Part shown: in pieces, positions 3,387 through 19,858 of the stretch
How the letters are laid out: the number at the start of each line of letters is the position of its first letter
Numbering within the stretch: the stretch's first letter is position 1
Assembly (NCBI GenBank): GCA_028711365.1
Contig: JAQTSI010000001.1
Span: 1 to 39,842, forward strand
DNA: 39,842 nucleotides
Source: Methylococcaceae bacterium
Lineage (GTDB): Bacteria > Pseudomonadota > Gammaproteobacteria > Methylococcales > Methylococcaceae
Direction: 5' to 3'
Made by a program: the position numbers and the translations under genes
The notes under the pieces: generated by a model
Told to the model about the DNA's origin: nothing
Seen by the model: only the letters and a program-made list of their open reading frames with translations
Databases searched by the model: none

Positions 3387-4301
3387 CTATGGCTTCGCCT
3401 GGGTATCCAGCGCAGTTTTGATGGACTTGGCCAGTTCACTGACGGGGCCCGCGCCCCAATAGTGAAGAAACATGATCTTGGGTGATTCGCCGATCATGTG
3501 ATTGTGGATGGTGGCGATGGAGATACCCGCACCCCGCAAAGCTTTCAAGACGCCTTGCAGCTCGGATTCCAGCATCGCGAAGTCGCCCGCGACGATGGCT
3601 TTCTCGTTGCTGCCGGCGAACACCGCCCAGGTATTGACGCCCATCGCCTTGCCAAGCTCGTGTCCATCCATTCGAGTGGTCCGGCCTAGGGTCACCTTGT
3701 AGACTTCGCCGACCTTCTCCACCGGAGCGCCGATGATAGCCTCGATGGGCTTGGGATCGAGCGAGGTTTTGCCGGCATCAAACGATGGGTGTGGTGTTTG
3801 ACCCTTGCCGCCGCTGGTTTCCTTGAGTTTGGCGAAAACCTTGCCCATACCCGTCGCCAGTTTTTCGGCATCCCCCAGACCGCCGATGTGCATGAACATC
3901 ACCTTGGGCGTGTCCCACAGGAAATGATTGTGCAGCGCGGTGACCTCGATACCATTGTCCAGCGCGGCACTCATGACCGGATCGATCTGATGTTCCTGCA
4001 ACACCAGATCGCCCATGACCGTGACCTTATCGCCCGCCGGTTTGAAGGCCGCCCAAGACGTGAGACCCATGGGCGGGACCATCTTGATTCCGGCCACGGT
4101 GACCTTGAGGTCCGAACGCGGCACGCCGACCTTGAAGACGTTTTCGGTGGCATCGAGTTTGCCTTTGATGCCGGTTAGTTGCTCGATCTTGGCCGTATCC
4201 AGGGCGGACGAGGGTTTGCTTGGCTCCTGTGCGGCGACCTGTCCACCGAACAGGGCACATGACAGCAGCATGGCGATCTTGGATTCACGAATCGTGTTCA
4301 T
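3387..4301 (-). CDS. DUF1259 domain protein with signal peptide, in chr locus
   Basis: N-terminal signal peptide; two repeats with HNHFLWDTPKVMFMH and HNHMIGESPKIMFLH; start ATGA overlaps the stop of the chrA remnant. Confidence 0.85.
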   Translation of the reverse strand: MNTIRESKIAMLLSCALFGGQVAAQEPSKPSSALDTAKIEQLTGIKGKLDATENVFKVGVPRSDLKVTVAGIKMVPPMGLTSWAAFKPAGDKVTVMGDLVLQEHQIDPVMSAALDNGIEVTALHNHFLWDTPKVMFMHIGGLGDAEKLATGMGKVFAKLKETSGGKGQTPHPSFDAGKTSLDPKPIEAIIGAPVEKVGEVYKVTLGRTTRMDGHELGKAMGVNTWAVFAGSNEKAIVAGDFAMLESELQGVLKALRGAGISIATIHNHMIGESPKIMFLHYWGAGPVSELAKSIKTALDTQAKP

Positions 4302-4560
4302 AGAAAAACTCCCGCCTGGACCAGCCAGGGTTTGACGACACCGAACAACAGCCCGGTCATGCCGCAGATGCCGATGACCGGAATGACGCCGATCTTGTAA
4401 CGGAAAAGGGCTACCGATTGCCGTGGGTGGACTCCAGCAGGGGGCCTCCTGCCAGGAAGAACAAAAAGCTGGGCAAAAAGCCGAGCCTGAGCCAATACCA
4501 GAAGGTCTGTCTCAGGGAAATCGGTTGAGGACGGCCCTGAGGAATGTCGAAGTGGTTCAT
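4298..4560 (-). pseudogene. chrA: chrA chromate transporter remnant with internal deletions
   Basis: From ATG at 4560: MNHFDIPQGRPQPISLRQTFWYWLRLGF (ChrA N-terminus) runs directly into LPSFLFFLAGGPLLESTHGNR* (ChrA mid-protein motif; stop at 4411). A different frame then gives ALFRYKIGVIPVIGICGMTGLLFG (ChrA C-terminus). Confidence 0.8.
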
Positions 4561-5510
4561 GCGTCGTTTCCCGAAAAGGCCAGATAGAACGAATCGAAGA
4601 CCTTTCCGGCTTCGGCCAGCAGTGTGTCATCATCGGTCCAAGCTTGGCGCATACCGCGGATGAGCGTTTCCAGCCCGGCCGCTTCCAGAACCGGAATTCC
4701 GCCGACATCCAGGTAGTGCACCAAACCTCCGAGCCGATTGAGCGCGGCATCATGGGTCAACCCGAAGCTGGTCAGCAGCATTTCGAAAGTGACTTTCGCC
4801 CCCACATGGGTGAACGGGGCGCCATCGAAATCGAAACCCAAGGCTTCGGTGGGACAGTCGGCGGAGGTGGCCAGCCAAAGAATCCGGGCGTCTGGATCGA
4901 TAAACCGTCGTATCAGCCAAGCGCTGGCGAGGCGATCGATCCAGGGCCGTTGGCGGGTCGCCCAGAGCCGGCCGCGATGGTCTTTGACCTGAAGTCGCTT
5001 GATCCGCCGATGGGCGGCATGGGGCTCGTCCGGCGTCAACCGGTCGATGACCGCATGCTCCAAGTCTTCCAACGCTGCTGCGGCTTGTTCCCTCGCCTCG
5101 CCAGGGAAGTAATCCACGGCCACTATCCCTTCAAACTCCCTTCGTAACCGATTCACCTGCCGCTGAAGCTTGTCGGGTTGTTCCGATGGAAGTTCCCGAA
5201 CATGGGTGTGCTGAATGGCTTCGACCAGTTTGGCGTAATCGGTCGACCGATCGAACAGGCCCTCGAAGAGTCCTTGCTGATCCCGGTTCTCGCTGTCCAG
5301 AACCAGCATATGGGCATTCCCTCCCCCCGCCATGACATCCTCGGCTTGCCTCTGAAATATTTGCCGAAATCCCGGCCGATTGGGCAACAGATACACGCCA
5401 TCCCTCAGTACCCCGCAACCCTGCGCCTTGAGCGCCCGCCACACGCGCATGCGCCCCGCCGTGTTATGGGTCGGCAAACTGATGATGAGAACAAGCCAAG
5501 GGGGCGCCAT
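4557..5510 (-). CDS. chrB: ChrB chromate resistance/regulatory protein
   Basis: MAPPWLVLIISLPTHNTAGRMRVWRALKAQGCGVLRDGVYLLP; C-terminal RQRPWIDRLASAWLIRRFIDPDARILWL...GFDFDGAPFTHVGAKVTFEMLL; 4-bp overlap with chrA start. Confidence 0.93.
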   Translation of the reverse strand: MAPPWLVLIISLPTHNTAGRMRVWRALKAQGCGVLRDGVYLLPNRPGFRQIFQRQAEDVMAGGGNAHMLVLDSENRDQQGLFEGLFDRSTDYAKLVEAIQHTHVRELPSEQPDKLQRQVNRLRREFEGIVAVDYFPGEAREQAAAALEDLEHAVIDRLTPDEPHAAHRRIKRLQVKDHRGRLWATRQRPWIDRLASAWLIRRFIDPDARILWLATSADCPTEALGFDFDGAPFTHVGAKVTFEMLLTSFGLTHDAALNRLGGLVHYLDVGGIPVLEAAGLETLIRGMRQAWTDDDTLLAEAGKVFDSFYLAFSGNDA

Positions 5511-5525
5511 AGTTTGAGATGGAAG

Positions 5526-5576
5526 GTCAACAAGTTGGTTGACTATCCTACAACATCGGTGTAGATAATTGTCAAC
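5526..5576. promoter_or_regulatory. Inverted-repeat operator candidate between chrB and PepSY-like gene
   Basis: GTCAAC(5526-5531)-aagttg-GTTGAC(5538-5543) and GTTGACTATCCTACA … TGTAGATAATTGTCAAC (5538-5576): three GTTGAC/GTCAAC half-sites and a TCTACA/TGTAGA-like inner arm. Confidence 0.55.
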
Positions 5577-5664
5577 GATTTTTTCGTTGCCAGCGATCCA
5601 GTCTCCAACATCCACGTCACCCTGGGTTCGCGTTCACGTTCACACGATTTATGCCGGAGGATTT

Positions 5665-6138
5665 ATGAAACCCCATAGTTTGATTCTCACTGTTGTCGTT
5701 GCCTGCATGGCAATGGTTGGCCAGGCGAATGCGGAAGAGAAAACCCAGAGCAAACACCAAGTCCCCAAAATGGTCATAGCGGCATTTGAAAAAGCCCATC
5801 CGAACGCCAAAGAGGTGAAGTTCGAGAAAGAAACCTTCGAAGGTAAGGAAGCCTACGAGGCGGAGTACCAGGAAAACGGCAAGGAGTATGAATTCCTCTA
5901 TGGCGCCGAGGGAGTGCTCTTGCAGAAGGAAGAAACCATCGATACCAAGACGCTGCCCGAATCGGTGGTTCAAGCCATTTCCAAGGCACACCCCAAGGCT
6001 GTCATCAAGGAAGCGGAGAAGATGATGAATCCCGATGGCACCGTGACCGGATACGAGGTAGAGGTCAAGGCAGGAGGAAAGGAACTCGAACTAGAATTGG
6101 ACACCGGTGGAAAGATCCTGAAAACCGAGCCGGAGTGA
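5665..6138 (+). CDS. Secreted PepSY-like domain protein
   Basis: Signal peptide MKPHSLILTVVVACMAMVGQANAEE; two repeats (VPKMVIAAFEKAHPNAK… and LPESVVQAISKAHPKAV…), each ending in a beta-rich segment; AGGATT RBS. Confidence 0.75.
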   Translation: MKPHSLILTVVVACMAMVGQANAEEKTQSKHQVPKMVIAAFEKAHPNAKEVKFEKETFEGKEAYEAEYQENGKEYEFLYGAEGVLLQKEETIDTKTLPESVVQAISKAHPKAVIKEAEKMMNPDGTVTGYEVEVKAGGKELELELDTGGKILKTEPE

Positions 6139-6262
6139 ATCCTACCCATTACGAGGTGATTCCCCTGGGTGAATGTGAGCGGAGCCAATGAGGGTGCAAG
6201 GTGCGTTGCACCCATTGCCATCCAATAACCCGACCTGAACGATACGAAAGGAGATAACGGCC

Positions 6263-7201
6263 ATGTCACTGTCTCGGCTCATTCCGGATCCCAATCAAAC
6301 CCCTGCGCCGTTCGACGTGCAGGAAACGACGATGAGCTATGATGTCTTCGGGCGCTATGTCTGCAATACTTGGGCAGAAGTGGACGCTGGCCAAAGAAAC
6401 GGCGGCTATCCCTTCGATGCCGTGGTGATAGGCGCGGGCATGTACGGCGCCCATTGTGCCGAGGAGTTGTATCGCTTGGGCGCGCCCTTGGGCCTGCGTA
6501 TCCTGGTCCTCGATGCGGGAGGGTTCCTGCTGCCTGCGCACATCCAGAATTTGCCCCAGCAATTGGGCGGGAGCATCGGCGGCTCGTCCCTACGGCAAAG
6601 GGACGATGGCACCCAGAATGTCATCTGGGGGATGCCCTGGATCAGCAATGCCGGTTTCCCCGGTTTGGCCTATTGCCTCGGCGGCCGATCGCTCTTTTGG
6701 GGAGGCTGGTCGCCCCGCCTTACCGCAGACGATTTGACCCAATGGCCCACAGAGGTCGCGAATTATCTGCAAAGTACCTCGAATGTCGCCTGCAACCCTG
6801 ACCCGAATGTCGCTGCGCCGGATGTCTATTGCGAAACGGAGCGGGAAATCGGCGTGGTTCCCAGCACCGATTACATCATCCAGACCGAGTTGTATCAGGC
6901 ATTGCTGAACGCCTTTTCCGCCGCACAGGCGAATGTCGCCACGATCACGGAAGTCCGGGAGGCGCCGCTGGCGGTGCAGGGTGCTGCTCCGAAATCCGGG
7001 ATTCTGCCTTTCGATAAGTTCAGCAGTTGCCCGTTTCTGATCGATTCGGTGAGGAACGATGTGGCGCTCAACACCCGCCAGGGGGAGGGGATTTGTGTAG
7101 ATACCTTTGCCCACAGGGGGTATGAAAGAGGAAAGAGACTGCCGGGATCTTGGAATGAATATTCAGCCAACCCAATAGATCAGCGGGTATTTAAGGAATG
7201 A
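6263..7201 (+). pseudogene. GMC-family oxidoreductase, 3'-truncated
   Basis: FDAVVIGAGMYGAHCAEELYRLG…ILVLDAG (FAD site), LGGRSLFWGGWSPR (GMC signature region); only 312 aa, lacking the C-terminal GMC catalytic domain; GGAG RBS upstream. Confidence 0.65.
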
Positions 7202-7246
7202 TCGAAACAAGACACCGGCCTGAATACCATGAAAAACATTTCTAGC

Positions 7247-8632
7247 TCAATATCCCAAGTGAAAATTGAGGGAGCCGACGAAGACGGTGGTTTGGTAGGT
7301 TCCATTGACCTTCGCATTCGTATTGCCCGAAATCTGGCGCGGATCGAAGAAAAACGCCTGGAAGGCGAGGTCCATGCCGATGTTTTTCGCCGTGAGCGGG
7401 CCAGAATCGGCATTGCCACAGGATATGAGCCCCAGAAACCGCCCTTGGTCTTTACAATTCAATCCCAGACCCAGCGCGATGCCATTCCAATCGGAATCCG
7501 TCAATTCCGGATTGAAGGTGTCGCTTGGGATGGGGCTATCGGAATGCTGAAATCCCGCCCGCAAGGCAATTTCCCATTGCGGTAATGCGCTCGGTTCCAG
7601 CCATTTGTACTCGGTACCGAAGCTGGCCGAATAGACCGAATGCCAGCGTTGGGGAGTCTTGGACTGTACTCCGTTGGAGAGTTTGACATCAAAGCTTTGA
7701 AAGCTGTCCCAGCCCACGAACTCCATGTCGTATTCCAGTTTCCACTCATGCAACCGATCCCGGATAGGCCAGAAGGCGATCGCGCCGACCACAACCTCGG
7801 GAAGTTCCAGCGCGCTCTTGGCTTTGGCCAAACGGGATCCGTTGGCCAGAATATCGCCATCGAGTCCGAGTCTCTCGCCGCTGCGGTAGACGAAGCCAAA
7901 ATTGAGCCTAGGCTTGCCTTCGGCCGTCCGTAACGGTGTCAACAACAGGCTGGCATTGAAGCCGACCGCGGTGCCTTCGCCGTTGAGTTCGGCCGTTCCG
8001 GCCGTAGGTGAGCGAGCTCTCCTTTGATATTTTCCGCCGCCGATGAAGCTGGCGAAGGTATAGATATCCAGGCCGAAACCGACCGACAGCATGTCATTGA
8101 TCTCATAAGCGAGCGTAGGCTTGACATCCAGCAACGGCAGTTTGGACCGGGTCACGACATTTGAAAAAGGCGTCTCGCCATTGTAGCGGACGGCCAGTCC
8201 GTAGGGGGAATTCACGCCTATCCCTAGGCTGAGAGGCCCTAAGGCCTGGAATCCCAAGTCTTTCAATCGGGCAGTGAGATAGAGATTGCTGGGTGCAGGA
8301 AAAGCGAAGTCGCCGGCGAAGTCGCTTTGGGATTTGAAACCCGTCGGGCTGGTATAGGTAGTTCCCCCACCGACCAGGTTGATTCCGGCTGAGACGCGAA
8401 CGCCTTGCAACTGGGTGATCCCGGCCGGATTGTAATGCAGAGCCGAAGCATCGTCGGCCTGGGCGGCGAAAGCTTCCCCCTGGCCAGCGGCGGCTGCGCC
8501 CTGATAGGGAATCCGATACGCATCGCCTAGTGCGGAAGTATGGGCGATGCAAAGAACGATACAGGTCAAAAATCTTGTATGGAAGGGCGGGTGCTCCGCC
8601 ATGGATGGCGCTATTAGGTCGGTATCTCGCAT
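7247..8632 (-). CDS. OmpP1/FadL-family outer membrane protein
   Basis: AAAAGQGEAFAAQADDASALHYNPAGITQLQGVRVSAGINLV is the FadL/OmpP1 N-terminal signature; beta-barrel-like sequence ending …GSLNFHLGY* (terminal aromatic). Start assigned at 8632 with GGAGGG upstream. Confidence 0.85.
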   Translation of the reverse strand: MRDTDLIAPSMAEHPPFHTRFLTCIVLCIAHTSALGDAYRIPYQGAAAAGQGEAFAAQADDASALHYNPAGITQLQGVRVSAGINLVGGGTTYTSPTGFKSQSDFAGDFAFPAPSNLYLTARLKDLGFQALGPLSLGIGVNSPYGLAVRYNGETPFSNVVTRSKLPLLDVKPTLAYEINDMLSVGFGLDIYTFASFIGGGKYQRRARSPTAGTAELNGEGTAVGFNASLLLTPLRTAEGKPRLNFGFVYRSGERLGLDGDILANGSRLAKAKSALELPEVVVGAIAFWPIRDRLHEWKLEYDMEFVGWDSFQSFDVKLSNGVQSKTPQRWHSVYSASFGTEYKWLEPSALPQWEIALRAGFQHSDSPIPSDTFNPELTDSDWNGIALGLGLNCKDQGRFLGLISCGNADSGPLTAKNIGMDLAFQAFFFDPRQISGNTNAKVNGTYQTTVFVGSLNFHLGY

Positions 8633-8773
8633 GGAGCCTGCGCCCTCCCCGGGCGGTTGGAAAAAAAGGTTATGAGGAAAGTCGATGTGACGGGATCGAT
8701 GGACTATGCAGTTAAATATTGTCACATGCCGGAAACCACAAAGGAATAAAAAGCCGATGCAAGGCGAAAAGTT

Positions 8774-8796
8774 TTGCAGACAAGAATTGCAGACAA
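8774..8796. repeat. Tandem 10-bp direct repeat TTGCAGACAA-gaa-TTGCAGACAA in divergent promoter region
   Basis: Exact copies at 8774-8783 and 8787-8796; partial third copy AGACAAT at 8828-8834. Confidence 0.7.
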
Positions 8797-8934
8797 TGGG
8801 GGAATCATATTAGAGTATTAGGGCGCTAGACAATCGAATAGGGACGAAATCGCCGCCAATCCGGGGAAAACGAAGGGGTGCGATTGAGATGTCTCTTAGA
8901 ATTTTTCCACTTTTCCGCCTACGAAAACAGGATT

Positions 8935-11112
8935 ATGAGCATCGACAGGCCCGTCAAAGTCGCCATCATCGGCAGTGGTTGCGCAGCGGTTGCCGCAGCA
9001 TTCGAACTCACCCGGCCCGAACATCGGGGCAAGTATCGAGTGACCCTCTATCAGATGGGGTGGCGAATGGGAGGGAAGGGTGCTTCCGGACGGGGGCCTG
9101 CGGATCGGATCGAGGAACATGGGCTGCACATCTGGCTCGGTTTCTATGAAAATGCATTCCGTCTGTTGCGCGAGTGCTATGCGGAACTCAAGCAGAACGA
9201 CCCGTCGCGCCGCTTGGCCGACTGGCAGGATGCTTTCATACGCGAGCCCCATGTCGGCATCGTGGATTCATCCCGTCAAGGCGGCTGGGTGGCATGGACG
9301 GCGCTCTTTCCGCCCGTGGATGGGTTGCCTGGCGATCCTCTCTCCACGCATAATCCCTTCTCTCTCGGCAATTATCTGGCGCGGGCCGTGGCGTTGTTGC
9401 GCTCGCTGTTCCTGGGACTTTATACCTGGAAGGAAACGGAGCCATCCGGTTCGATTCGGGCATTCTCTCCCGTCGGGGAAAAGCGCGAGTCTTCTCCCGA
9501 ATCGCTCATCGCCAGCATCAGCCGGCTGCTGCGGGTTGGGGCGCTGGCGACCCTGGCCGGCCTGATCGAGGCCCTGGCGATTTTGGAAATGCTGCTGAAA
9601 TCGACTCCGACCTATCCGGAAAATCTTCTCCTGCGCTTCATCGAGAATATCGCCGCAGCCATTCGGGCCCAACTCGAGGATTTCGTCATCGATGACGATG
9701 AAATCCGGCTCAAGTGGCAGATCATCGATCTCGTCATCGCCATTCTGGTCGGTGCGGCGCGTTTTCGCTTGCTTTTCGATCCCCGCGGGCTCGATGCGAT
9801 CAACGATTACGAATGCCGGCAGTGGCTGCGCATGAATGGCGCTTCGGAGCATAGCGTGGACTGCGCATTCGTGCGCGGGCTTTACGATTTGGCCCTGGCT
9901 TACGAGGATGGCGATCCCGCGCGGCCCGGGCTGGCGGCGGGGCAGGCTCTGCGGGGATCATTGCGGATGTTCTTCACCTATCGCGGCGCCTTGTTCTGGA
10001 AGATGCGGGCGGGGATGGGGGACATCATTTTCGCCCCGTTTTATGAAGTGCTCAAACAGCGGGGAGCCAGCGTCAAATTTTTCCATCGCCTGGAAAATGT
10101 GAAACTCGTAGACCCCGCCAAGCTCGCACCGGGCGAACGCCCTTATGTGGAAGCGCTGGAATTCGACGTTCAAGCCAAGATGCTCGGTGACGGTGAATAT
10201 AGCCCTTTGGTCGACGTGAAAGGCATTCCTTCCTGGCCATCACAACCGGATTACCGTCAATTGGAAGACGGTTCGAGAATGGAACGGGAGGGATGGGATT
10301 TCGAATCCCATTGGGATCGTCGCAAGATGGCCAGTGTCACTCTTCGCGTGGTGGAAGATTTCGATTTCGTCGTATTCGGGGCCAGCATCGGCGCCGTCCC
10401 CCACACCTGCAAGGAAATCCTGGCTAGGGACGAACGCTGGCGGGCCATGGTCCAACAGGTCAAGACGGTCGCCTCGCAAGCCATCCAACTATGGATGAAC
10501 GAGGACATGAAATCGGTGGGCTGGAATGCTCCCACGGTGACCTTGTCCGCTTTCGTCAAGCCCTTCGATACCTGGGCCGACATGGAGCATCTCATCGCGG
10601 AAGAGAACTGGCGCCCGCAGCCAAAGGCGATCGCCTATTTTTGCAATGTGCTGGCCGATCCGCCGGTCGAGCCGGATCGTTCGGATGCGGGCTACCCGCA
10701 ACGGCGGCGCGAGGAAGTCAGGCAAAACGCTATCCAATTTCTGAACCATCAGATACGCTATCTATGGCCCAAAGCGGCGACCGCGCAAGGATTTCGCTGG
10801 GAGATCCTGGCCGATCCGACGGGTCATCAGCCGACGCCGGCTTCCTGCGGCGAGAAGCGCTTCGACACCCAATACTGGCGAGCGAATGTCAATCCGACGG
10901 ACCGTTATGTGCTGGCCCTTCCCGGCTCGCTGAAATATCGCATCTCGCCTTTGGACAATACCTACGACAATCTGACCATCGCGGGAGACTGGACCGACTG
11001 CGGTTTCAACGAAGGCTGCGTGGAGGCCGCCATCATGTCTGGCAGGCTGGCGGCCCATGCCATCGCCCAATCCCCGCCCCTAGAGGACATCATTGGTTAT
11101 GATCATCCTTGA
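8935..11112 (+). CDS. FAD-dependent NAD(P)-binding oxidoreductase, phytoene/zeta-carotene desaturase-like
   Basis: VAIIGSGCAAVAAAFEL (Rossmann), RMGGKGASGR, EEHGLHIWLGFYENAFRLL (ZDS/PDS-type motif), C-terminal NLTIAGDWTDCGFNEGCVEAAIMSGRLAAHAI. Confidence 0.85.
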   Translation: MSIDRPVKVAIIGSGCAAVAAAFELTRPEHRGKYRVTLYQMGWRMGGKGASGRGPADRIEEHGLHIWLGFYENAFRLLRECYAELKQNDPSRRLADWQDAFIREPHVGIVDSSRQGGWVAWTALFPPVDGLPGDPLSTHNPFSLGNYLARAVALLRSLFLGLYTWKETEPSGSIRAFSPVGEKRESSPESLIASISRLLRVGALATLAGLIEALAILEMLLKSTPTYPENLLLRFIENIAAAIRAQLEDFVIDDDEIRLKWQIIDLVIAILVGAARFRLLFDPRGLDAINDYECRQWLRMNGASEHSVDCAFVRGLYDLALAYEDGDPARPGLAAGQALRGSLRMFFTYRGALFWKMRAGMGDIIFAPFYEVLKQRGASVKFFHRLENVKLVDPAKLAPGERPYVEALEFDVQAKMLGDGEYSPLVDVKGIPSWPSQPDYRQLEDGSRMEREGWDFESHWDRRKMASVTLRVVEDFDFVVFGASIGAVPHTCKEILARDERWRAMVQQVKTVASQAIQLWMNEDMKSVGWNAPTVTLSAFVKPFDTWADMEHLIAEENWRPQPKAIAYFCNVLADPPVEPDRSDAGYPQRRREEVRQNAIQFLNHQIRYLWPKAATAQGFRWEILADPTGHQPTPASCGEKRFDTQYWRANVNPTDRYVLALPGSLKYRISPLDNTYDNLTIAGDWTDCGFNEGCVEAAIMSGRLAAHAIAQSPPLEDIIGYDHP

Positions 11113-11157: not shown

Positions 11158-11895
11158 ATGACACAGCAAGAACGGCTACACCGACAGGATCCGAAACGCA
11201 GTGAACCCATTCGAAATTTGACCGGCTTTTTGCGCAATTCTCACTCGTGGGGCGAAAACCCGCCGGGCGAGGAGCCGGGTAAAACCGAACCCCAGGGTTC
11301 GTCGGAGAAACTGGATGATGTGCTGACCCATGGAGTGCATCTCGGTTATAAGATCATCGAAGAACAAATCAGCCAAGGCCAGCGGGTGGCCCAGCGGCTG
11401 CGCAAGCGTTACCCGCCGATGGGGGATAGGGAGGGCGATGGCGGTGGCGAGATCGACGCGCTCATCTCGCGCCTGTTGGGATTGACCAAGGATATGGGCA
11501 CGCTCTGGTTCGATTCGATGGAAATGGTCCTGAAAACTCCCCGTTTGCTGCGCGGGCTCGCCGGTGGTGAAGAACAGGGCGAAGTCGGTATCGCCTCGAA
11601 CCTGGCCGAAACCCATATCAGCATCGAAATCGCCTCCTCGAAGCGGGCGCAGGTGAGCTTGAACCTGCCGTCGCGACCGCAGCGCTATATCCCGCTGGTT
11701 CATGCCCTATATGCGACGAATCCGGCATTTCCGCCGCTGACCGGCATCTCTTTCAGGCATTGCACCGGTTCGCCGCATCCGATCCTGCAGGTTGAAATTC
11801 CTGACCATCAGCCAGCTTCCACCTACACCGGGGTGGTGGCCGATGGCGAGACCAATGAACCGGTCGGCACCTTGGTCGTGCGCGTGCTGGCTTGA
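11158..11895 (+). CDS. Uncharacterized 245-aa protein
   Basis: Clean ORF with GAGGGAG RBS, in operon context; amphipathic helical N-half (LGYKIIEEQISQGQRVAQRLRKR) and beta-rich C-half (YTGVVADGETNEPVGTLVVRVLA). Confidence 0.8.
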   Translation: MTQQERLHRQDPKRSEPIRNLTGFLRNSHSWGENPPGEEPGKTEPQGSSEKLDDVLTHGVHLGYKIIEEQISQGQRVAQRLRKRYPPMGDREGDGGGEIDALISRLLGLTKDMGTLWFDSMEMVLKTPRLLRGLAGGEEQGEVGIASNLAETHISIEIASSKRAQVSLNLPSRPQRYIPLVHALYATNPAFPPLTGISFRHCTGSPHPILQVEIPDHQPASTYTGVVADGETNEPVGTLVVRVLA

Positions 11896-11904
11896 GATTC
11901 GACT

Positions 11905-12957
11905 ATGTCACATCCCTCTCGCGAGCAGGTGGTTCGCACTTCCCCGCTGATTCCGAAGCTTCTGGAAGAATACGGAACTCTCACCCGCAAGGCGATGATG
12001 CACTATTTGCCTTCCGGAGCGCCTCAACGCTATCTGTACGATTTGATTGCCGATTATCCTTTGCGGGGCGGCAAGATGATGCGCTCGAGCCTGTGCATCG
12101 CCACGGCGCGGATATTCGGCGCAAAGCTCGAGGATGCCATGGGTTCGGCGGTGGCCATCGAGTTGCTGCACAACGCATTGCTGATCCACGACGACATCGA
12201 GGATGACAGCGAGGAGAGGCGCGGACGGCCTACCTTGCACATGCTGCATGGCGTTCCGCTAGCCCTCAATGCCGGCGATTCGCTTTGCTTGCTCGCCCTG
12301 CGCCCGCTGATGGACAACATGAACAGGATCGGCCCGCGCTTGGCGGCGAAGATTTTCGAAGAAACCGAACGCATGGCCTGGGAATCGGCGGAAGGCCAGG
12401 CGATGGAACTGGGATGGTGCCGCGATAACTGCAATGGTTTGAGCGACGAGGATTATCTCACGATGGTCCTGAAGAAAACCTGTTGGCTGGCGATGATCTA
12501 TCCGAGCCGGGTGGGAGCCATGATCGGGGCGCGGGATGGGGTGGATCTGGATCAATTCATCCGCTTCGGTTTTTTTCTCGGCGCTTCCTTTCAGATCCAG
12601 GACGATCTGCTGAATTTCGTGGCCGACAGTCGGTATGGCAAGGAGTTGCATGGGGATATTTGGGAAGGCAAACGAACCCTCATGCTCAATCATGTCTACC
12701 GTGAATCCAGCGCGGAAGAGCAGGCGCGGCTAGCCGAAATCCTGGGATTGCCCCGCCAGCAACGTCACCCCGAACAGATCCACTGGGTCCGCCGGCTGAT
12801 GGATACCTACGGTTCGCTGGATTATGCCAGCAAGATCGCCCATGGGTTGGCGGGCGCGGCTTTGCATGAATTCCATGGCATCTACGCTGACTTGCCCGAT
12901 TCCCGGGACAAGCAATTCATCGAAGGGTTGGCGACCTGGGTATTCGAGCGAACCTGA
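11905..12957 (+). CDS. Polyprenyl (geranylgeranyl-type) diphosphate synthase family protein
   Basis: GGKMMRSSLCIATA, LLIHDDIEDDSEERRGRPTLH (first Asp-rich motif), FQIQDDLLNFVAD (second motif, DDxxN), GKRTLML. Confidence 0.93.
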   Translation: MSHPSREQVVRTSPLIPKLLEEYGTLTRKAMMHYLPSGAPQRYLYDLIADYPLRGGKMMRSSLCIATARIFGAKLEDAMGSAVAIELLHNALLIHDDIEDDSEERRGRPTLHMLHGVPLALNAGDSLCLLALRPLMDNMNRIGPRLAAKIFEETERMAWESAEGQAMELGWCRDNCNGLSDEDYLTMVLKKTCWLAMIYPSRVGAMIGARDGVDLDQFIRFGFFLGASFQIQDDLLNFVADSRYGKELHGDIWEGKRTLMLNHVYRESSAEEQARLAEILGLPRQQRHPEQIHWVRRLMDTYGSLDYASKIAHGLAGAALHEFHGIYADLPDSRDKQFIEGLATWVFERT

Positions 12958-13079: not shown

Positions 13080-16000
13080 ATGGCGACATTCAAAAAACCC
13101 AGTTACATCAATCCAACCGGCATCAGTGGACCTAGGGATCTGCCCTCCAGCCCTCCCTTTGCATTTCGCAATGTGACGGCCCGCGTTTTTCCCATCAAGG
13201 CCAACATGGCGCGGTTGACCGATTTTTGTGCCAGCTATGTCAATATGGATATTCCCGATGACATCGCCCAGTTCTTCCCTGCCTTGCCTTATGTTTATCT
13301 GGCGGTGGTCAACTACGGCAGCATGTCGCCTATTTCGGTTCAGGCCCAGAACATCGGTTGGGTTGCCCAGCATGAAGTCTTCTTCCTGATTCCCCTCGAG
13401 AAATGGCGCAAGGAAGGAGGGCGGTTGGTTTTCAAGGAATGGGCCTGTGTTTCGCCTTTTATTTATGTCGACGATGCGATGTCCATGACCACCGGGCGGG
13501 AGGTTTATGGCTGGGCCAAGGTCGCAGGCGAGATCGATCAGGAGACGCCCCTGTGGGTGGAAAATCCGACCGCGCCCACCCGATTGTTCAGCCTGCGTGT
13601 TCCTGTTTTCCCCAAGGAGTACGAGGGCAAACGCGAAGAGAACCGTCTGCTGTTGCAGATCGATCGCGACCCCCCGCCGAATCTTTCGATGTTTCCGCCG
13701 GATCTGAAAAGCCCGTTCGTCAATCTTTCCACCGCCACTTACGCCTGGTTCGGTCTCATGGGGGACGCCGCCGACATGTTGACGGCGTTGCCCGCCCGGG
13801 GCTATCGCTCGAGCAGGGATCTGCGTTCCCTGCTGAGCATGGCGGGCAAGGCCGGGGGGAGTTTGCTGCGCATGTTTCCTAGCTTGCTGAGGCGGCAGTT
13901 GCTCAGAAATGCGCAGCAGGATGATTTGGGTTTTGGCAGGGCGGCGGAGGCTTTCATCAATCAGATCACCCTGAAGCAGTTTCGTGATGCCGGTGATCCC
14001 AGCCAGGCCTGTTATCAGGCCCTGGTCAGTTCCCGCATGGGCCTGGACCGGTTCAATCGGTGCGGAATGCTAGGCGATTACAACGTGATGCGCGGTGATC
14101 CGTCCGGAGGTTTCACCCTTCGTCTTCACCAATATGAAGCCTATCCCATCGTGGAATCCTTGGGGCTGGAAGTCGACCGGTTTGAAGAGAACCCGGATGC
14201 TCCGGTTGCCATCATCAAGCCCACCTTCCCGATATGGAGCGACGTGGATCTCTACTATGACATCGGCCAGATCATTTGCGAGCGCCATGCCTGTTCCTAT
14301 GGCAATGGTTTCTGCGCCGAATGGCATGCCGAATCGGAGCACGCCCCGCAGGCGAGCAAGGAGAATCCCCCCAGCGGCGGCAGTTCCCATCCAGCGAAGG
14401 GGGCAGGCAAGCCGCATCGACATGACACTGCGGCCGATCCGGATCCCAGCCGGCGAGTTCTCTACAATACCGTGCGCGGCGGCTCGAGTCAGGCCATCGC
14501 AGGCCCCTTCGATTTCCCGGACATCACCTTGCAGGTCTATCCCCTGCTGGCCGATCGCGGCAAGCTCAAGGAATTTCTCGATAATTATCTGAATTCGCCG
14601 CTGAATCCCCACGCTCAAGAGACCGGTTTGAGTTTCGAGCCGTTCGGCGATTATGTTTATCTGATGGTCGATGTTTACGGTGACCAAGCGGGAGTCATGT
14701 GGTCCGAGTCCAATAACATCGGCTGGTGGGCCGACAAATCCGTGTCTTTCAGCGTCCCGGTCAAATGCTATCGGGATGGCAAATTGCAGAGTGTCGCCCT
14801 GGTTTCCCCCTATCAGTTCGCCAACAATGGCCGCGCCGTCATCAGCGATCGCGAGGTCAATGGTCGGCCCACGGCGAAAGCCAGCATCGAAACCCATCCC
14901 GATGCCTGGCTGGACGAATCGGGGCCTATCGCCGCCCGCAGGATGCTCAAGTTGAGTTGCGAGGTTTTTCCTGCGTTGAATGTGGGACAGCGATCCATTC
15001 AATCCACCTTGTTGGAAATCGATCAGCGCCTCCCCTTGCCCGAAAACGACGAGACCGGCTGGCGGTTGATTGCCGAGCGCTGGCGCGAACCGCTGGTTCG
15101 TGATTTGACACGCAAGACGCTGTTTCGGCGGGTCCACAAGACGGACGTAGACCATGTCAAGGCCTTGGGTTTGGAAATCCTGACCCAAGATGCGCCCGTC
15201 AATGGCTTGCACATCAAACAGTACCGGGATGCCTCCGATACCTCAAAGGCCTGTTATCAAGCTTTGGTGAGGACGAGGCGAAGCATCGAACGGATCTATG
15301 ATATTCGGGAAATCGAACCACGCGTGTATGTGCGAATTCATCAAATTCCGGATCATCCCATCGTCGAGACACTCGGCTTGAAAGTGATGCATGTGGATTC
15401 GAGCGGGTCCAGCGTGGAACAGGTATTGCAACCGATCCGTCCATTCTGGATGCGTTTTGGCGGCAAGGAAAACTTAGGCGAAGTGCTGTGTTGGCGCGTG
15501 GAGAACGGGCCATGGACCCTGACTGCTTCGATGCTCGAACATCAAGCCTATGCCCGCACCCGCGTGGGGGCTGGCATCCTGGAACAGCTTGGCCATTTGA
15601 AACAACGGCTGCGGGAAAAAGCCAACCAGTGGCTGTTCGAGGCGCTTTCCCGGGAAGTCAAAGATATTCAGCGCATCATATTGAATCTTGCAGAAGGTAA
15701 ACGCCAGGAATTGATCGAGGAACTCGACGCCTGCCCCGATGGGGAGGATAAGTCGACTGCCCGATACCTGGCGGCGGATGCCCTCAAGCTGTTGATCAAC
15801 CACTATGGCGATGCCGAGTTGGAACGGAGGATACGCCAGCTATTTCGCTCGATATCGACGGAAGATCTCTACGAGGTGGTGGAAGCGATTTCGAAAGTGG
15901 CAGGAAATCATGGTGAGATCACCTCGATTCGGCTTTCGTGGGAACAGGCTCGGATTTCGCTCGAAAATGTCGACGATGTGCAAGTGATCATCGACAGCAT

Positions 16001-16472
16001 ATTGAGCGAAAAGTGGGGAAATTGGGATGATTCCCGCCAGGAAGAGGAGCCCCAACCGGAATTTCGTCTTCCCGCCGATGCCTTTGCAAGAGAGGGTTTT
16101 GGCGTCAGCAGGACAATAGGGGAAAACCAATATATCATCGTCGAATCCGATAATAGGCAGCGCGTGCTGCTGGAAAAGCTCGGTCACTGGTATTTCGTTC
16201 CGGAAACCGCTTTGGTGAAAGATCTCCCGCTTCAATTATCCAAGAACATTCAGGCCGTTATTCTCGGCGAAATCAAGAAAAAGCTGATGAGCAGGGATAC
16301 GATTCTGGATGCGATCACCCATGAAGCCGATATCATCAAGGCGATCCACGAGTATTGCAAGGATAAAGTAGAGGGTTTGTCGGAAGCCGATAGGGAAGCG
16401 TTGATCAGCCAATTGAAGGAGGATTTGGCGGAGGAATTGAAAGGGGAAATGCTCAAGGAAATGGTGAGCTAG
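13080..16472 (+). CDS. Large protein with two tandem acetoacetate decarboxylase-like domains and an uncharacterized C-terminal region
   Basis: Domain 1 has …NIGWVAQHEVFFLIPLEKW…TGREVYGWAKVAGEI; domain 2 has …NNIGWWADKSVSFSVPVKCY…SDREVNGRPTAKASIE. Both end in KQ[FY]RDA.D.S.ACYQALV…PIVE[ST]LGL.V. GGAGGAG RBS. Confidence 0.85.
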   Translation: MATFKKPSYINPTGISGPRDLPSSPPFAFRNVTARVFPIKANMARLTDFCASYVNMDIPDDIAQFFPALPYVYLAVVNYGSMSPISVQAQNIGWVAQHEVFFLIPLEKWRKEGGRLVFKEWACVSPFIYVDDAMSMTTGREVYGWAKVAGEIDQETPLWVENPTAPTRLFSLRVPVFPKEYEGKREENRLLLQIDRDPPPNLSMFPPDLKSPFVNLSTATYAWFGLMGDAADMLTALPARGYRSSRDLRSLLSMAGKAGGSLLRMFPSLLRRQLLRNAQQDDLGFGRAAEAFINQITLKQFRDAGDPSQACYQALVSSRMGLDRFNRCGMLGDYNVMRGDPSGGFTLRLHQYEAYPIVESLGLEVDRFEENPDAPVAIIKPTFPIWSDVDLYYDIGQIICERHACSYGNGFCAEWHAESEHAPQASKENPPSGGSSHPAKGAGKPHRHDTAADPDPSRRVLYNTVRGGSSQAIAGPFDFPDITLQVYPLLADRGKLKEFLDNYLNSPLNPHAQETGLSFEPFGDYVYLMVDVYGDQAGVMWSESNNIGWWADKSVSFSVPVKCYRDGKLQSVALVSPYQFANNGRAVISDREVNGRPTAKASIETHPDAWLDESGPIAARRMLKLSCEVFPALNVGQRSIQSTLLEIDQRLPLPENDETGWRLIAERWREPLVRDLTRKTLFRRVHKTDVDHVKALGLEILTQDAPVNGLHIKQYRDASDTSKACYQALVRTRRSIERIYDIREIEPRVYVRIHQIPDHPIVETLGLKVMHVDSSGSSVEQVLQPIRPFWMRFGGKENLGEVLCWRVENGPWTLTASMLEHQAYARTRVGAGILEQLGHLKQRLREKANQWLFEALSREVKDIQRIILNLAEGKRQELIEELDACPDGEDKSTARYLAADALKLLINHYGDAELERRIRQLFRSISTEDLYEVVEAISKVAGNHGEITSIRLSWEQARISLENVDDVQVIIDSILSEKWGNWDDSRQEEEPQPEFRLPADAFAREGFGVSRTIGENQYIIVESDNRQRVLLEKLGHWYFVPETALVKDLPLQLSKNIQAVILGEIKKKLMSRDTILDAITHEADIIKAIHEYCKDKVEGLSEADREALISQLKEDLAEELKGEMLKEMVS

Positions 16473-19400
16473 AATTCTCCGGCTCGAACAAGGCTCTGGC
16501 TTCACGGAGTTCTTCCGGGGCGGCAGAGCCCTGTTCGGCAAATCTTTCCGCAATTTCCTTCAAAACCGCCCGCGCCGGTTCGCCTGAGCCGCGTTCGAGG
16601 CCGAGTTGGTAGAGGGCGATGGCGGCGCGCAGTTCGAACAGCTTGGCCCCCTGGCGCCGGGCGATGCCTAAAGCCGTCTGCAATTCCACTTGGCCTTCTT
16701 CCCCGCAAACCAGCAATTTGCCGCGGATGCGGTGTAGTTCGGCCGCGTAAAGGCGTTCGTGATGGCTGTCGGAGTGCGCGATGGCTTCCTCGACGCCGGC
16801 AAGCGCCTCTTCGGTCATGCCGATTTCCCGGTAGCTTTTCGCGAGCCAGGCCAGGAAATAGGAGCGCTGCAGTTCCGCGCCGCCGGCTCGCCATTTGGCC
16901 AGGGTGTCGGTCAACGGGGCTAGCGCCTGTTCGGGCGCCCCTAGCTTGCTGTTGGCGATGGCCGAATGCAAGGTGCCTGCGTCCAGCCAGACGGCATAGC
17001 CTTGCCGTTGCGAGATCGCGATGACTTCCTGCGCATGCAGCGCCGCCTCCTGGAACCGGCCCCGCAGGGTCTCGAATTGCGCCAGATAACAGTGGGCAAA
17101 AGCCAGGTCGAAGGGGCGATTCCTCTGCCCCAGGGTTTCGAGGATTTCCTGCCGACACTGTTGCGCCCGGTTGGCATCGCCGAGTATCCAGGCGATCAGC
17201 GCCAGCAGGGACAAGCAGGCCAGCAGTGGATCCTGGGGCGTCGGATAGCTGAATTGGTCGCCGCCGAAGGAACGGTAGAGATGGATGCCCTCATTCAAGC
17301 TTTGCGCGCCTTCCTGCAACTCTCCCAGGTAGGCCAAGGAGAATCCCAGCGCGGTGTGGCCTTCGATCAGCCAATCGGCCCGCTGTGTCTCCTTGCCCAG
17401 GCGCACGCAGTGCTCGGCGAGTTCCCTCGCCGTCTCCAGTTCGCTGCGCACATGATAAAAGCTCCACAATCCCCTCAGCACCGGAAATAGTTCCGCGCTG
17501 TCGCCCAACAAGCCGCACAATTCGCGGGCGCGCTGGTAAGCGCTTTCCACCGCGGTCGCCGCATAGCCCAGCGAAGCCGACAGGCTCATGCCTAGATGCA
17601 CCTGTAGCCCGAGTTCCAGCCCATGGCGGCTTTGATCCTCGGGCAGTTTGGCCACCAGTTCCAGCGCCGTCTCGAAATGCTTGCCGGCTTCGGCATAGGC
17701 CGCCAGGCTGCCGGCGCGCAAGCCGGCCTTTTCCCAGTAAGGGATGGCCTTGAGCGGCAAGTGGGCGGCGCTGAAATGTTGCGCCAGCCATTCGGGTTCG
17801 CTCGTGGCGATTTGCGGGAAATTGCGCTCCACCGCTTCGGCGATGCGGCGATGCAGGGCGGCCCGACTGCTCTTCAGCAGCGATTCGTAGGCGGCATCCT
17901 GCACCAGGGCATGGCGAAAGACATAATGCCGATGGCCGGACTCTCCATGGGGATAGACGACTTCCTCCTCGATCAGGCGCTGGATGCCAGTCCAGAGTGC
18001 TTCCCGGCTTCCGGCCCACACCGCCTCGAGCACCGCGCCGTCGAATTCGCGTCCGAGCAGGGCGGCCAACTGGGCGACCTGTTTCGCTTCGCCGAGACGA
18101 TCCAGTCGCGCCAGCAGCAGATCGTGCAGGGTGGAGGGAATGACGGCAAAGGTTTGGGGCCGACCGGCGGGAGATTGCCGCGACTCGACCATGGTCTTGG
18201 TGTATTCCTGAAGATACAGGGGGATGCCGTCGGTCTTCGTCACCACCGATTCGATGAGTTCGGGGGGAAGTTCCTGCGTCCCCATGGTCTGACGCACCAG
18301 AGTGATGGCGTCGCCATCCGGTAGCCGGCCCAAGGGGATCACCGTGACATGGGGCCTAAAAGCCCAGCGAGGATTGAATTCCGGGCGGGTGGTAAGCAAT
18401 ACCAGCAGGGGCAGGGAGGCACCCTGCTCGACGATGAAATCCACGAATTCCAAAGTCGACGGGTCGGCCCAGTGCAGGTCTTCCAGCAGCAGCAGGATCG
18501 GTTTGCCCTGGCCGCAGCGCACCAGCAGATCGAGCAAGTGTTGCAAGCTCAGCCGCCGCTGCCGTTCCGGAGTCAAAGGCGGCAATGGATAATCGGCGGG
18601 CGCCGGGATCGACAGCAGATTGGCGAACAGGAGCAGGGTCTCCTCCAGGGGTTCCAGATCGGTTTCGCCGAGAAATTTCCTGAGGGTTTGCCAGGCCATG
18701 GCATCGTCCGAAGGACGCTTGCCGGCAAAGATGATCTGTCCCAAGGTATTGATGACCGGAAACAGTGCGCTTTGGGTATGATAGGAAGAACATTGCATCT
18801 CGATCAGGCGGGCGCCATGTTCTTCGCACATCCATTCCGCCATGGCGCGGGCCAGGCGCGACTTGCCGATGCCGGCTTCGCCGCCGATCAACACGATCTG
18901 CCCCAGGCCGTGGAGCGCTTTGCCGCCCCGCTCCTTGAGCAAGGATTGTTCCGCCTTGCGGTCGACCAACTCGGACAGGATACTGGTGCGTACCGCCAGG
19001 AAACGGCTGTCCACGGTGCGTTCGGCCAACACCCGCCACAGTTGCTGCGCTTGGGCGAAACCCTTGAGCGGGTGCAGGCCGAGATCTTCGTAGTCGAACT
19101 GATTACCCAACAGGCGGCGTGTGCTGGAGCCGATGAGCACCGTGTCCGGCTGCGCCAGGCTCTGAATGCGAGCCGCCAGATTGGGGGTTTCGCCCACCAC
19201 GCCGACTTCCCATCCCTTGCCTCGGGCGATCATGTCGCCGACCACCACCAGGCCGGTGGCGATGCCGACCCGGGTTCGCAGACGCAGGCCGGATTCGAAT
19301 TGGAGGCCCGCCACGCTGGCCAAAATGTGGAGTCCGGCCAGGACCGCCCGTTCGGCATCGTCTTCGTGGGCCTGGGGATAGCCGAAGTAGGCCATGATGC

Positions 19401-19770
19401 CATCGCCCAGGAATTGGGCGATATAGCCGGCATATTCGGTGATCAGTTGGGAGCAGGTATTCTGATAGGTACGCAGAACCCCGTGCTGATCTTCCGGATC
19501 GAGGCGGGTGGATAGAGTGGTCGAGTCGACCAGGTCGCAGAACAACACGGTCAGTTGACGCCGTTCGGGAGCGGTCTCATCCGGGGGAAGGGACGCCGTG
19601 TAGACTATCGGCCCCGAATCGGCCAGGGCCTTGCCGCAGCCGCCACAAAAGTTGGCGGCGGGCGGGTTGGAGAAACCGCAGCCGGGGCAGCCGATCGCCA
19701 GCGATGTCCCGCAATGGGTGCAGAAACGCTCCCCTTCCCGGCTGTCCGTCAAGCATTTAGGGCAGTGCAT
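16453..19770 (-). CDS. Double zinc-ribbon class III adenylate/guanylate cyclase with AAA (STAND-type) ATPase and TPR-like region
   Basis: CPKC…CTHC…CPGC…CGGC; VLFCDLVDSTTLSTRLDPED and FLGDGIMAYFGYPQAHEDDAERA (cyclase); GGEAGIGKSRLAR (Walker A), LLLLEDLHWADPST (Walker B); alpha-helical repeats C-terminally. Confidence 0.93.
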   Translation of the reverse strand: MHCPKCLTDSREGERFCTHCGTSLAIGCPGCGFSNPPAANFCGGCGKALADSGPIVYTASLPPDETAPERRQLTVLFCDLVDSTTLSTRLDPEDQHGVLRTYQNTCSQLITEYAGYIAQFLGDGIMAYFGYPQAHEDDAERAVLAGLHILASVAGLQFESGLRLRTRVGIATGLVVVGDMIARGKGWEVGVVGETPNLAARIQSLAQPDTVLIGSSTRRLLGNQFDYEDLGLHPLKGFAQAQQLWRVLAERTVDSRFLAVRTSILSELVDRKAEQSLLKERGGKALHGLGQIVLIGGEAGIGKSRLARAMAEWMCEEHGARLIEMQCSSYHTQSALFPVINTLGQIIFAGKRPSDDAMAWQTLRKFLGETDLEPLEETLLLFANLLSIPAPADYPLPPLTPERQRRLSLQHLLDLLVRCGQGKPILLLLEDLHWADPSTLEFVDFIVEQGASLPLLVLLTTRPEFNPRWAFRPHVTVIPLGRLPDGDAITLVRQTMGTQELPPELIESVVTKTDGIPLYLQEYTKTMVESRQSPAGRPQTFAVIPSTLHDLLLARLDRLGEAKQVAQLAALLGREFDGAVLEAVWAGSREALWTGIQRLIEEEVVYPHGESGHRHYVFRHALVQDAAYESLLKSSRAALHRRIAEAVERNFPQIATSEPEWLAQHFSAAHLPLKAIPYWEKAGLRAGSLAAYAEAGKHFETALELVAKLPEDQSRHGLELGLQVHLGMSLSASLGYAATAVESAYQRARELCGLLGDSAELFPVLRGLWSFYHVRSELETARELAEHCVRLGKETQRADWLIEGHTALGFSLAYLGELQEGAQSLNEGIHLYRSFGGDQFSYPTPQDPLLACLSLLALIAWILGDANRAQQCRQEILETLGQRNRPFDLAFAHCYLAQFETLRGRFQEAALHAQEVIAISQRQGYAVWLDAGTLHSAIANSKLGAPEQALAPLTDTLAKWRAGGAELQRSYFLAWLAKSYREIGMTEEALAGVEEAIAHSDSHHERLYAAELHRIRGKLLVCGEEGQVELQTALGIARRQGAKLFELRAAIALYQLGLERGSGEPARAVLKEIAERFAEQGSAAPEELREARALFEPENSSSPFP

Positions 19771-19858
19771 CGAGAATCTCCGCCGGTGCCGATCGAATGA
19801 TTCGTTAGATATCCAAGTCATTGAAGATAGAAAGATTGGCGGGTGATCCCGAGTGTCT

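Follow-up and report, generated by a model that had tools for sequence, protein, structure and literature searches.

A conserved tandem acetoacetate decarboxylase-like protein with one lysine-bearing and one lysine-less half, encoded beside a prenyl diphosphate synthase

The window, a stretch of 39,842 nucleotides from a Methylococcaceae bacterium (assembly GCA_028711365.1, contig JAQTSI010000001.1), encodes a tandem protein whose two homologous halves match the acetoacetate decarboxylase (ADC) family and of which only the first carries a lysine, K147, at the position of the Schiff-base-forming Lys115 of Clostridium acetobutylicum ADC (CaADC). As aligned with its relatives, half 1 probably acts as a catalyst by way of K147, and half 2 is probably a retained partner domain that lacks the lysine. 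With moderate confidence, we explain the protein as a whole as an enzyme that forms a Schiff base with the carbonyl of an isoprenoid, joined to a non-catalytic partner domain. The features on which the analysis draws are collected in Table 1.

Table 1 Coordinates of the features discussed; those of the fusions refer to their own loci.
Feature	Coordinates	Strand	Basis or remark
FadL/TodX-type outer-membrane hydrophobic transporter	7247..8725	-	Family match; divergent from operon
FAD-dependent oxidoreductase (amine-oxidase/HpnE-like, AmOx)	8935..11112	+	Start from orthologs; ORF opens at 8878
245-aa protein (P245), conserved in operon	11158..11895	+	Operon orthologs
Prenyl diphosphate synthase (PF00348), both Asp-rich motifs	11905..12957	+	Closest solved relative GGPP synthase 1wmw
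Tandem ADC-like protein, 1130 aa	13080..16472	+	ORF; orthologs L006-L013; Foldseek
Half 1, ADC domain with putative catalytic Lys (~aa 18-404)	13131..14291	+	PF06314 match; alignments
E99 codon, aligned to CaADC Glu76	13374..13376	+	Invariant in half-1 conservation comparison
GREVYGWAKVAG motif, residues 139-150 (K147, V148)	13494..13529	+	Alignment; K147 codon 13518-13520
Half 2, predicted ADC fold without Lys (~aa 462-815)	14463..15524	+	AF2 model; Foldseek
DREVNGRPTAKA, degenerate active-site loop, residues 590-601 (T598, A599)	14847..14882	+	T598 in Lys115 column
C-terminal extension (~residues 850-1130), mostly helical, low-confidence model	15627..16469	+	Most orthologs
Class III nucleotidyl cyclase + AAA_16 + TPR-like protein	16453..19821	-	Convergent; tail overlaps tandem gene by 20 bases
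ADC-AmOx fusions	L015 3-1844; L020 12007-14913; L033 8556-11471

Fold and active-site residues of the two halves

The open reading frame is preceded by a ribosome-binding site rated good (GGAGGAG), and its halves are homologous, as the initial annotation had proposed, with 26% identity over 391 columns (BLASTP, E = 6e-34). The C-terminal extension, which the initial annotation missed, is variable; it is present in most orthologs and missing from that of Methylotetracoccus oryzae (L009). The Pfam ADC profile PF06314 matched residues 125-156 with 24.1 bits, below its cut-off of 29.8, and the ADC assignment therefore required independent proof. The same profile scored above the cut-off with the Xenophilus ortholog (30.8 bits) and with a Pseudomonadales paralog (locus L035, 51.3 bits), the latter tying the family to ADC by sequence. 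A sequence search of the PDB with the tandem protein returned chance helical matches only, and a profile of half 1 and its single-domain relatives gave the C. violaceum ADC structure 3bgt as its best PDB match, a weak one at the active-site motif that puts K147 on the first lysine of PKK.

The full-length AlphaFold2 model was weak (mean pLDDT 53, pTM 0.46). In a Foldseek search with this model the top 18 chains all belonged to the ADC family (including 3bgt, 3bh2, 3c8w, 4jmd, 6eej, 4zbt and 5upb), with a best E value of 1.6e-8 and the next match at 0.011. Half 2 modelled alone gave a better model (pLDDT 72.5, pTM 0.75), for which the top 16 matches were again all ADC family (best E 1.8e-10, next match about 0.01). 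On these models both halves have the ADC beta-barrel/cone fold, in line with the earlier assignment, and no other fold matched significantly among solved structures.

A joint alignment with CaADC, whose sequence was checked against 3bh2, paired K147 with Lys115, V148 with Lys116, E99 with Glu76 and V32 with Arg29, and placed T598 and A599 of half 2 in the Lys115 and Lys116 columns. The equivalence of K147 and Lys115 is based on sequence and profile alignment together with the fold match. The motifs GREVYGWAKVAG and DREVNGRPTAKA lie exactly where the initial annotation had put them, and its reading that half 1 keeps only the first lysine and half 2 neither was borne out, the alignment placing a lysine pair in neither half. 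Within half 1, K147 and K299 are the only lysine columns with at least 80% conservation; R140, E141, G144 and, mostly, E99 are conserved alongside K147. The Glu76 column of half 2 drifts among E, S, Q, D and K. We also considered rescue by a lysine elsewhere in half 2 and rejected it: only K562 and K713 are conserved, and K713, whose counterpart in half 1 is K299, does not stand in for the lost lysine.

Comparison with the residues that surround Lys115 in true ADCs (Arg29, Glu61, Glu76 and Lys116) left half 1 with an equivalent of Glu76 only; valine replaces both Arg29 and Lys116, and the alignment of the Glu61 column is uncertain. Decarboxylation of acetoacetate by half 1 thus appears unlikely from its residues, since the Arg29 and Lys116 equivalents are gone, although those of Lys115 and Glu76 are kept. 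Tuning of the pKa by Lys116, which the initial annotation took as established, is reportedly the older view of the ADC mechanism, later crystal-structure work being said to attribute the shift mainly to a hydrophobic site. The second lysine is missing in all aligned relatives of the subfamily, single or tandem, whereas the aldolase-dehydratase of S. bingchenggensis (4zbt/6eej) retains PKK. The second lysine therefore does not reveal the reaction, and the proposal that half 1 is aldolase/dehydratase-like because the pair is lost does not hold.

Age and retention of the lysine asymmetry

We compared orthologs from Xenophilus, a Caulobacteraceae MAG, three Pseudomonadales MAGs, Methylotetracoccus and an unplaced MAG. 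Lysine occupies the K147 column in 10/10 half-1 sequences, as it does in all the single-domain relatives found, vs 0/8 half-2 sequences, which have T, S or A instead, or M in a paralog. This paralog is a second tandem protein in one Pseudomonadales genome (L035), 29% identical, in half 2 of which methionine replaces the lysine (GRELYGYPM). Mean identity is 51.5% in half 1 vs 48.4% in half 2; only M. oryzae departs from this pattern, its half 2 having drifted more (34-41%) than its half 1 (47-54%). In a tree, the half-1 sequences form one group and the half-2 sequences another, each with 100/100 support and each including the L035 paralog, which places the duplication and the asymmetry before the split of the tandem proteins.

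Since half 2 lacks the lysine in 8/8 sequences yet trails half 1 only slightly in conservation, the asymmetry, as read from these alignments, is old and has been kept, rather than the product of local decay. The gene is rare, being found in 3/101 related genomes and in 3/301 of the order, with the window's own genome included both times, and this rarity would fit a one-genome oddity in which a degenerate duplicate decayed recently. That account is extremely improbable: orthologs from several orders and the distant paralog share the same asymmetry, and we rejected recent decay of half 2 on this ground. The tandem protein was absent from the other searched members of the window's genus, and a plasmid and phage search for its close relatives found none. 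The patchy distribution suggests horizontal transfer; as the operon (55.6-59.5%) and the window (57.9%) have similar GC contents, any such transfer either happened some time ago or had a donor with a similar genome.

Conservation also bears on what half 2 does. It has 72 invariant positions, R591, E592 and G595 among them, and with a mean identity so close to that of half 1 it might house an active site of another kind that needs no lysine, making the protein bifunctional. We regard this as distinctly improbable, since no single residue has taken over in the Lys column (T, S, A or M), the Glu76 column drifts and half 2 of M. oryzae has diverged more than its half 1. The earlier description of half 2 as a structural pseudo-domain is plausible, but given how little its conservation falls short of that of half 1, a role in binding or regulation is just as plausible.

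Operon, fusions and the cyclase neighbour

The tandem gene is the last of an operon in the order AmOx, P245, prenyl diphosphate synthase, tandem ADC, with gaps of 45, 9 and 122 bases. The operon recurs in orthologs from Methylococcaceae, Comamonadaceae, Caulobacteraceae and Pseudomonadales. In ortholog loci whose flanks suffice, its genes, P245 included, are again clustered, in rearranged order in L007; the exception is L013, where no neighbour matches the window's genes. A Pfam search with P245 matched no family. Its N-terminal part looks helical, and its conserved C-terminal domain ends in Y-x-G-x(9)-P-x-G. AmOx shares its FAD-binding and C-terminal blocks with flavoproteins of the HpnE/carotenoid-desaturase type and is not a member of HpnE, scoring 62.4 bits against an NCBIfam cut-off of 283 and being about 300 residues longer. 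The genes scanned beside the operon included no recognisable terpene, squalene or phytoene synthase, and the single SQS_PSY match in the genome lies on another contig. The FadL gene is arranged in the same way in M. oryzae, and a FadL gene also lies beside the module of Azospirillum. In the window the FadL gene is also adjoined by an apparently truncated 312-aa fragment of an FAD-binding oxidoreductase (6263-7201, + strand) with a weak NAD_binding_8/DAO match.

A single ADC domain is fused to an AmOx homolog in three lineages, with the ADC first in L015 and last in L020 and L033. These fusions, which occur in both orders, are strong evidence that the ADC and the FAD oxidoreductase act together. 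In addition, a single ADC gene adjoins an AmOx homolog in Catenovulum and Azospirillum. In these fusions and pairs the ADC belongs to the same subfamily, with the second lysine missing, AmOx is homologous to that of the window, and a cyclase lies nearby in several; unlike the tandem protein, they have one ADC domain, which keeps its lysine, and no prenyl synthase was seen alongside.

These observations bear on whether either half is an enzyme. The tandem protein could instead be a carrier or scaffold for a hydrophobic ligand, with the ADC cone serving as a lipid pocket and K147 holding an aldehyde as a stable Schiff base. The hydrophobic context of FadL and prenyl synthase, and the loss of the Lys116 and Arg29 equivalents, would agree with this, as would the finding that cyanobacterial lipid droplets contain both an ADC-family protein and an FAD-dependent oxidoreductase (PMC12923008). 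Against it, R140, E141, G144, K147 and mostly E99 are conserved as in catalytic members, and a metabolic role is suggested by the fusion to an oxidoreductase; we therefore judge a carrier or scaffold role rather unlikely.

The prenyl synthase link itself could be incidental, the ADC, oxidoreductase and cyclase forming an older module that acts on another metabolite. Beside the ADC/AmOx sets of Catenovulum, Azospirillum, Qingshengfaniella and G882, a prenyl synthase was neither annotated nor matched. Tandem-ADC loci with enough flank, by contrast, nearly always include a prenyl synthase and P245, L013 being the exception, and both also occur in a diverged paralogous operon and in an unfused one, which leaves an incidental link unlikely, though less so than a carrier role. 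The diverged operon (L035, 6893-17472) encodes a P245-like protein, a prenyl synthase whose N-terminal part is in another frame or missing, the tandem ADC with Lys and Met, AmOx, a methyltransferase and a cyclase. The unfused operon (L019, same phylum, 3410-10984) has two adjacent ADC genes, both with the lysine, whose long branches in the tree assigned neither of them to half 1 or half 2, and a saccharopine-dehydrogenase-like reductase; similar reductases follow or adjoin the ADC gene in L007, L008 and L010.

The convergent cyclase has close homologs in five genomes (1, 2, 1, 2 and 4 copies). Seven of the ten map no more than about 10 kb from an ADC/oxidoreductase locus, the three exceptions all being from Xenophilus, and cyclase-type genes flank the plasmid modules of Qingshengfaniella, Rufibacter and, more weakly, Azospirillum. 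We take the linkage of cyclase and ADC locus to be real. On the Rufibacter plasmid (L022, 4382-12226), a cyclase and an FAD oxidoreductase occur with no recognisable ADC gene. The best NCBIfam match of the window's cyclase, the TOMM kinase/cyclase fusion, falls below the cut-off. A Pycsar (PycC) defence system, which would have a Pycsar effector beside the cyclase, was considered and rejected: the PADLOC matches are to the generic cyclase domain only, and the other four operon proteins scanned matched no defence model.

Proposed function and comparison with known ADC-fold proteins

Retention of the lopsided form in a rare cluster with a prenyl synthase, an FAD oxidoreductase and usually a cyclase indicates that the tandem ADC is probably part of an uncharacterised pathway, most likely an isoprenoid-related one. 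A literature search that excluded most subscription journals found no paper on the cluster or on a tandem ADC. Alongside the observed fold, lysine position, conservation, and operon and fusion linkage, we infer Schiff-base catalysis, an isoprenoid substrate, an order of steps and a regulatory role, as follows. The prenyl diphosphate synthase would make a C15/C20-type isoprenoid, in which the FAD oxidoreductase would introduce or expose a carbonyl, either directly or following dephosphorylation. The tandem ADC would act late in the pathway: K147, helped by E99, would condense with the ketone or aldehyde for a decarboxylation, aldol, dehydration or cyclisation step, and half 2 would be a duplicated partner kept for binding, assembly or regulation. 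The adjoining cyclase/AAA/TPR protein would probably sense or regulate the pathway, and FadL may transport a hydrophobic product. Should the prenyl synthase serve a modification rather than supply the substrate, the product might not be an isoprenoid. A more specific version is tentative and, on balance, doubtful: an undescribed isoprenoid-derived metabolite whose last steps depend on an obligate pair of catalytic and pseudo-catalytic ADC domains, and which is made for, or read by, the linked cyclase/AAA/TPR protein.

The protein offers a natural, conserved pair of lysine-bearing and lysine-less ADC domains in one chain, and its unfused and single-domain relatives provide comparisons that make the role of the dead half directly testable. 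The cluster of FAD oxidoreductase, prenyl synthase, ADC and cyclase, patchy across methanotrophs and other Proteobacteria, extends Schiff-base ADC chemistry toward probable isoprenoid substrates.

Half 1 has the GRE..G..K motif in common with the ADCs of Clostridium (3bh2) and C. violaceum (3bgt), from which the tandem protein differs by its duplication and by a long insert in each half. Further structural matches (E 1e-5 to 1e-10) are the ADC-like aldolase/dehydratases MppR (4jmd), that of S. bingchenggensis (4zbt, 6eej) and Swit_4259 (5upb), which show that the ADC fold supports other Schiff-base chemistry. Unlike the tandem protein, these are single domains of about 260 residues encoded outside any prenyl synthase operon.
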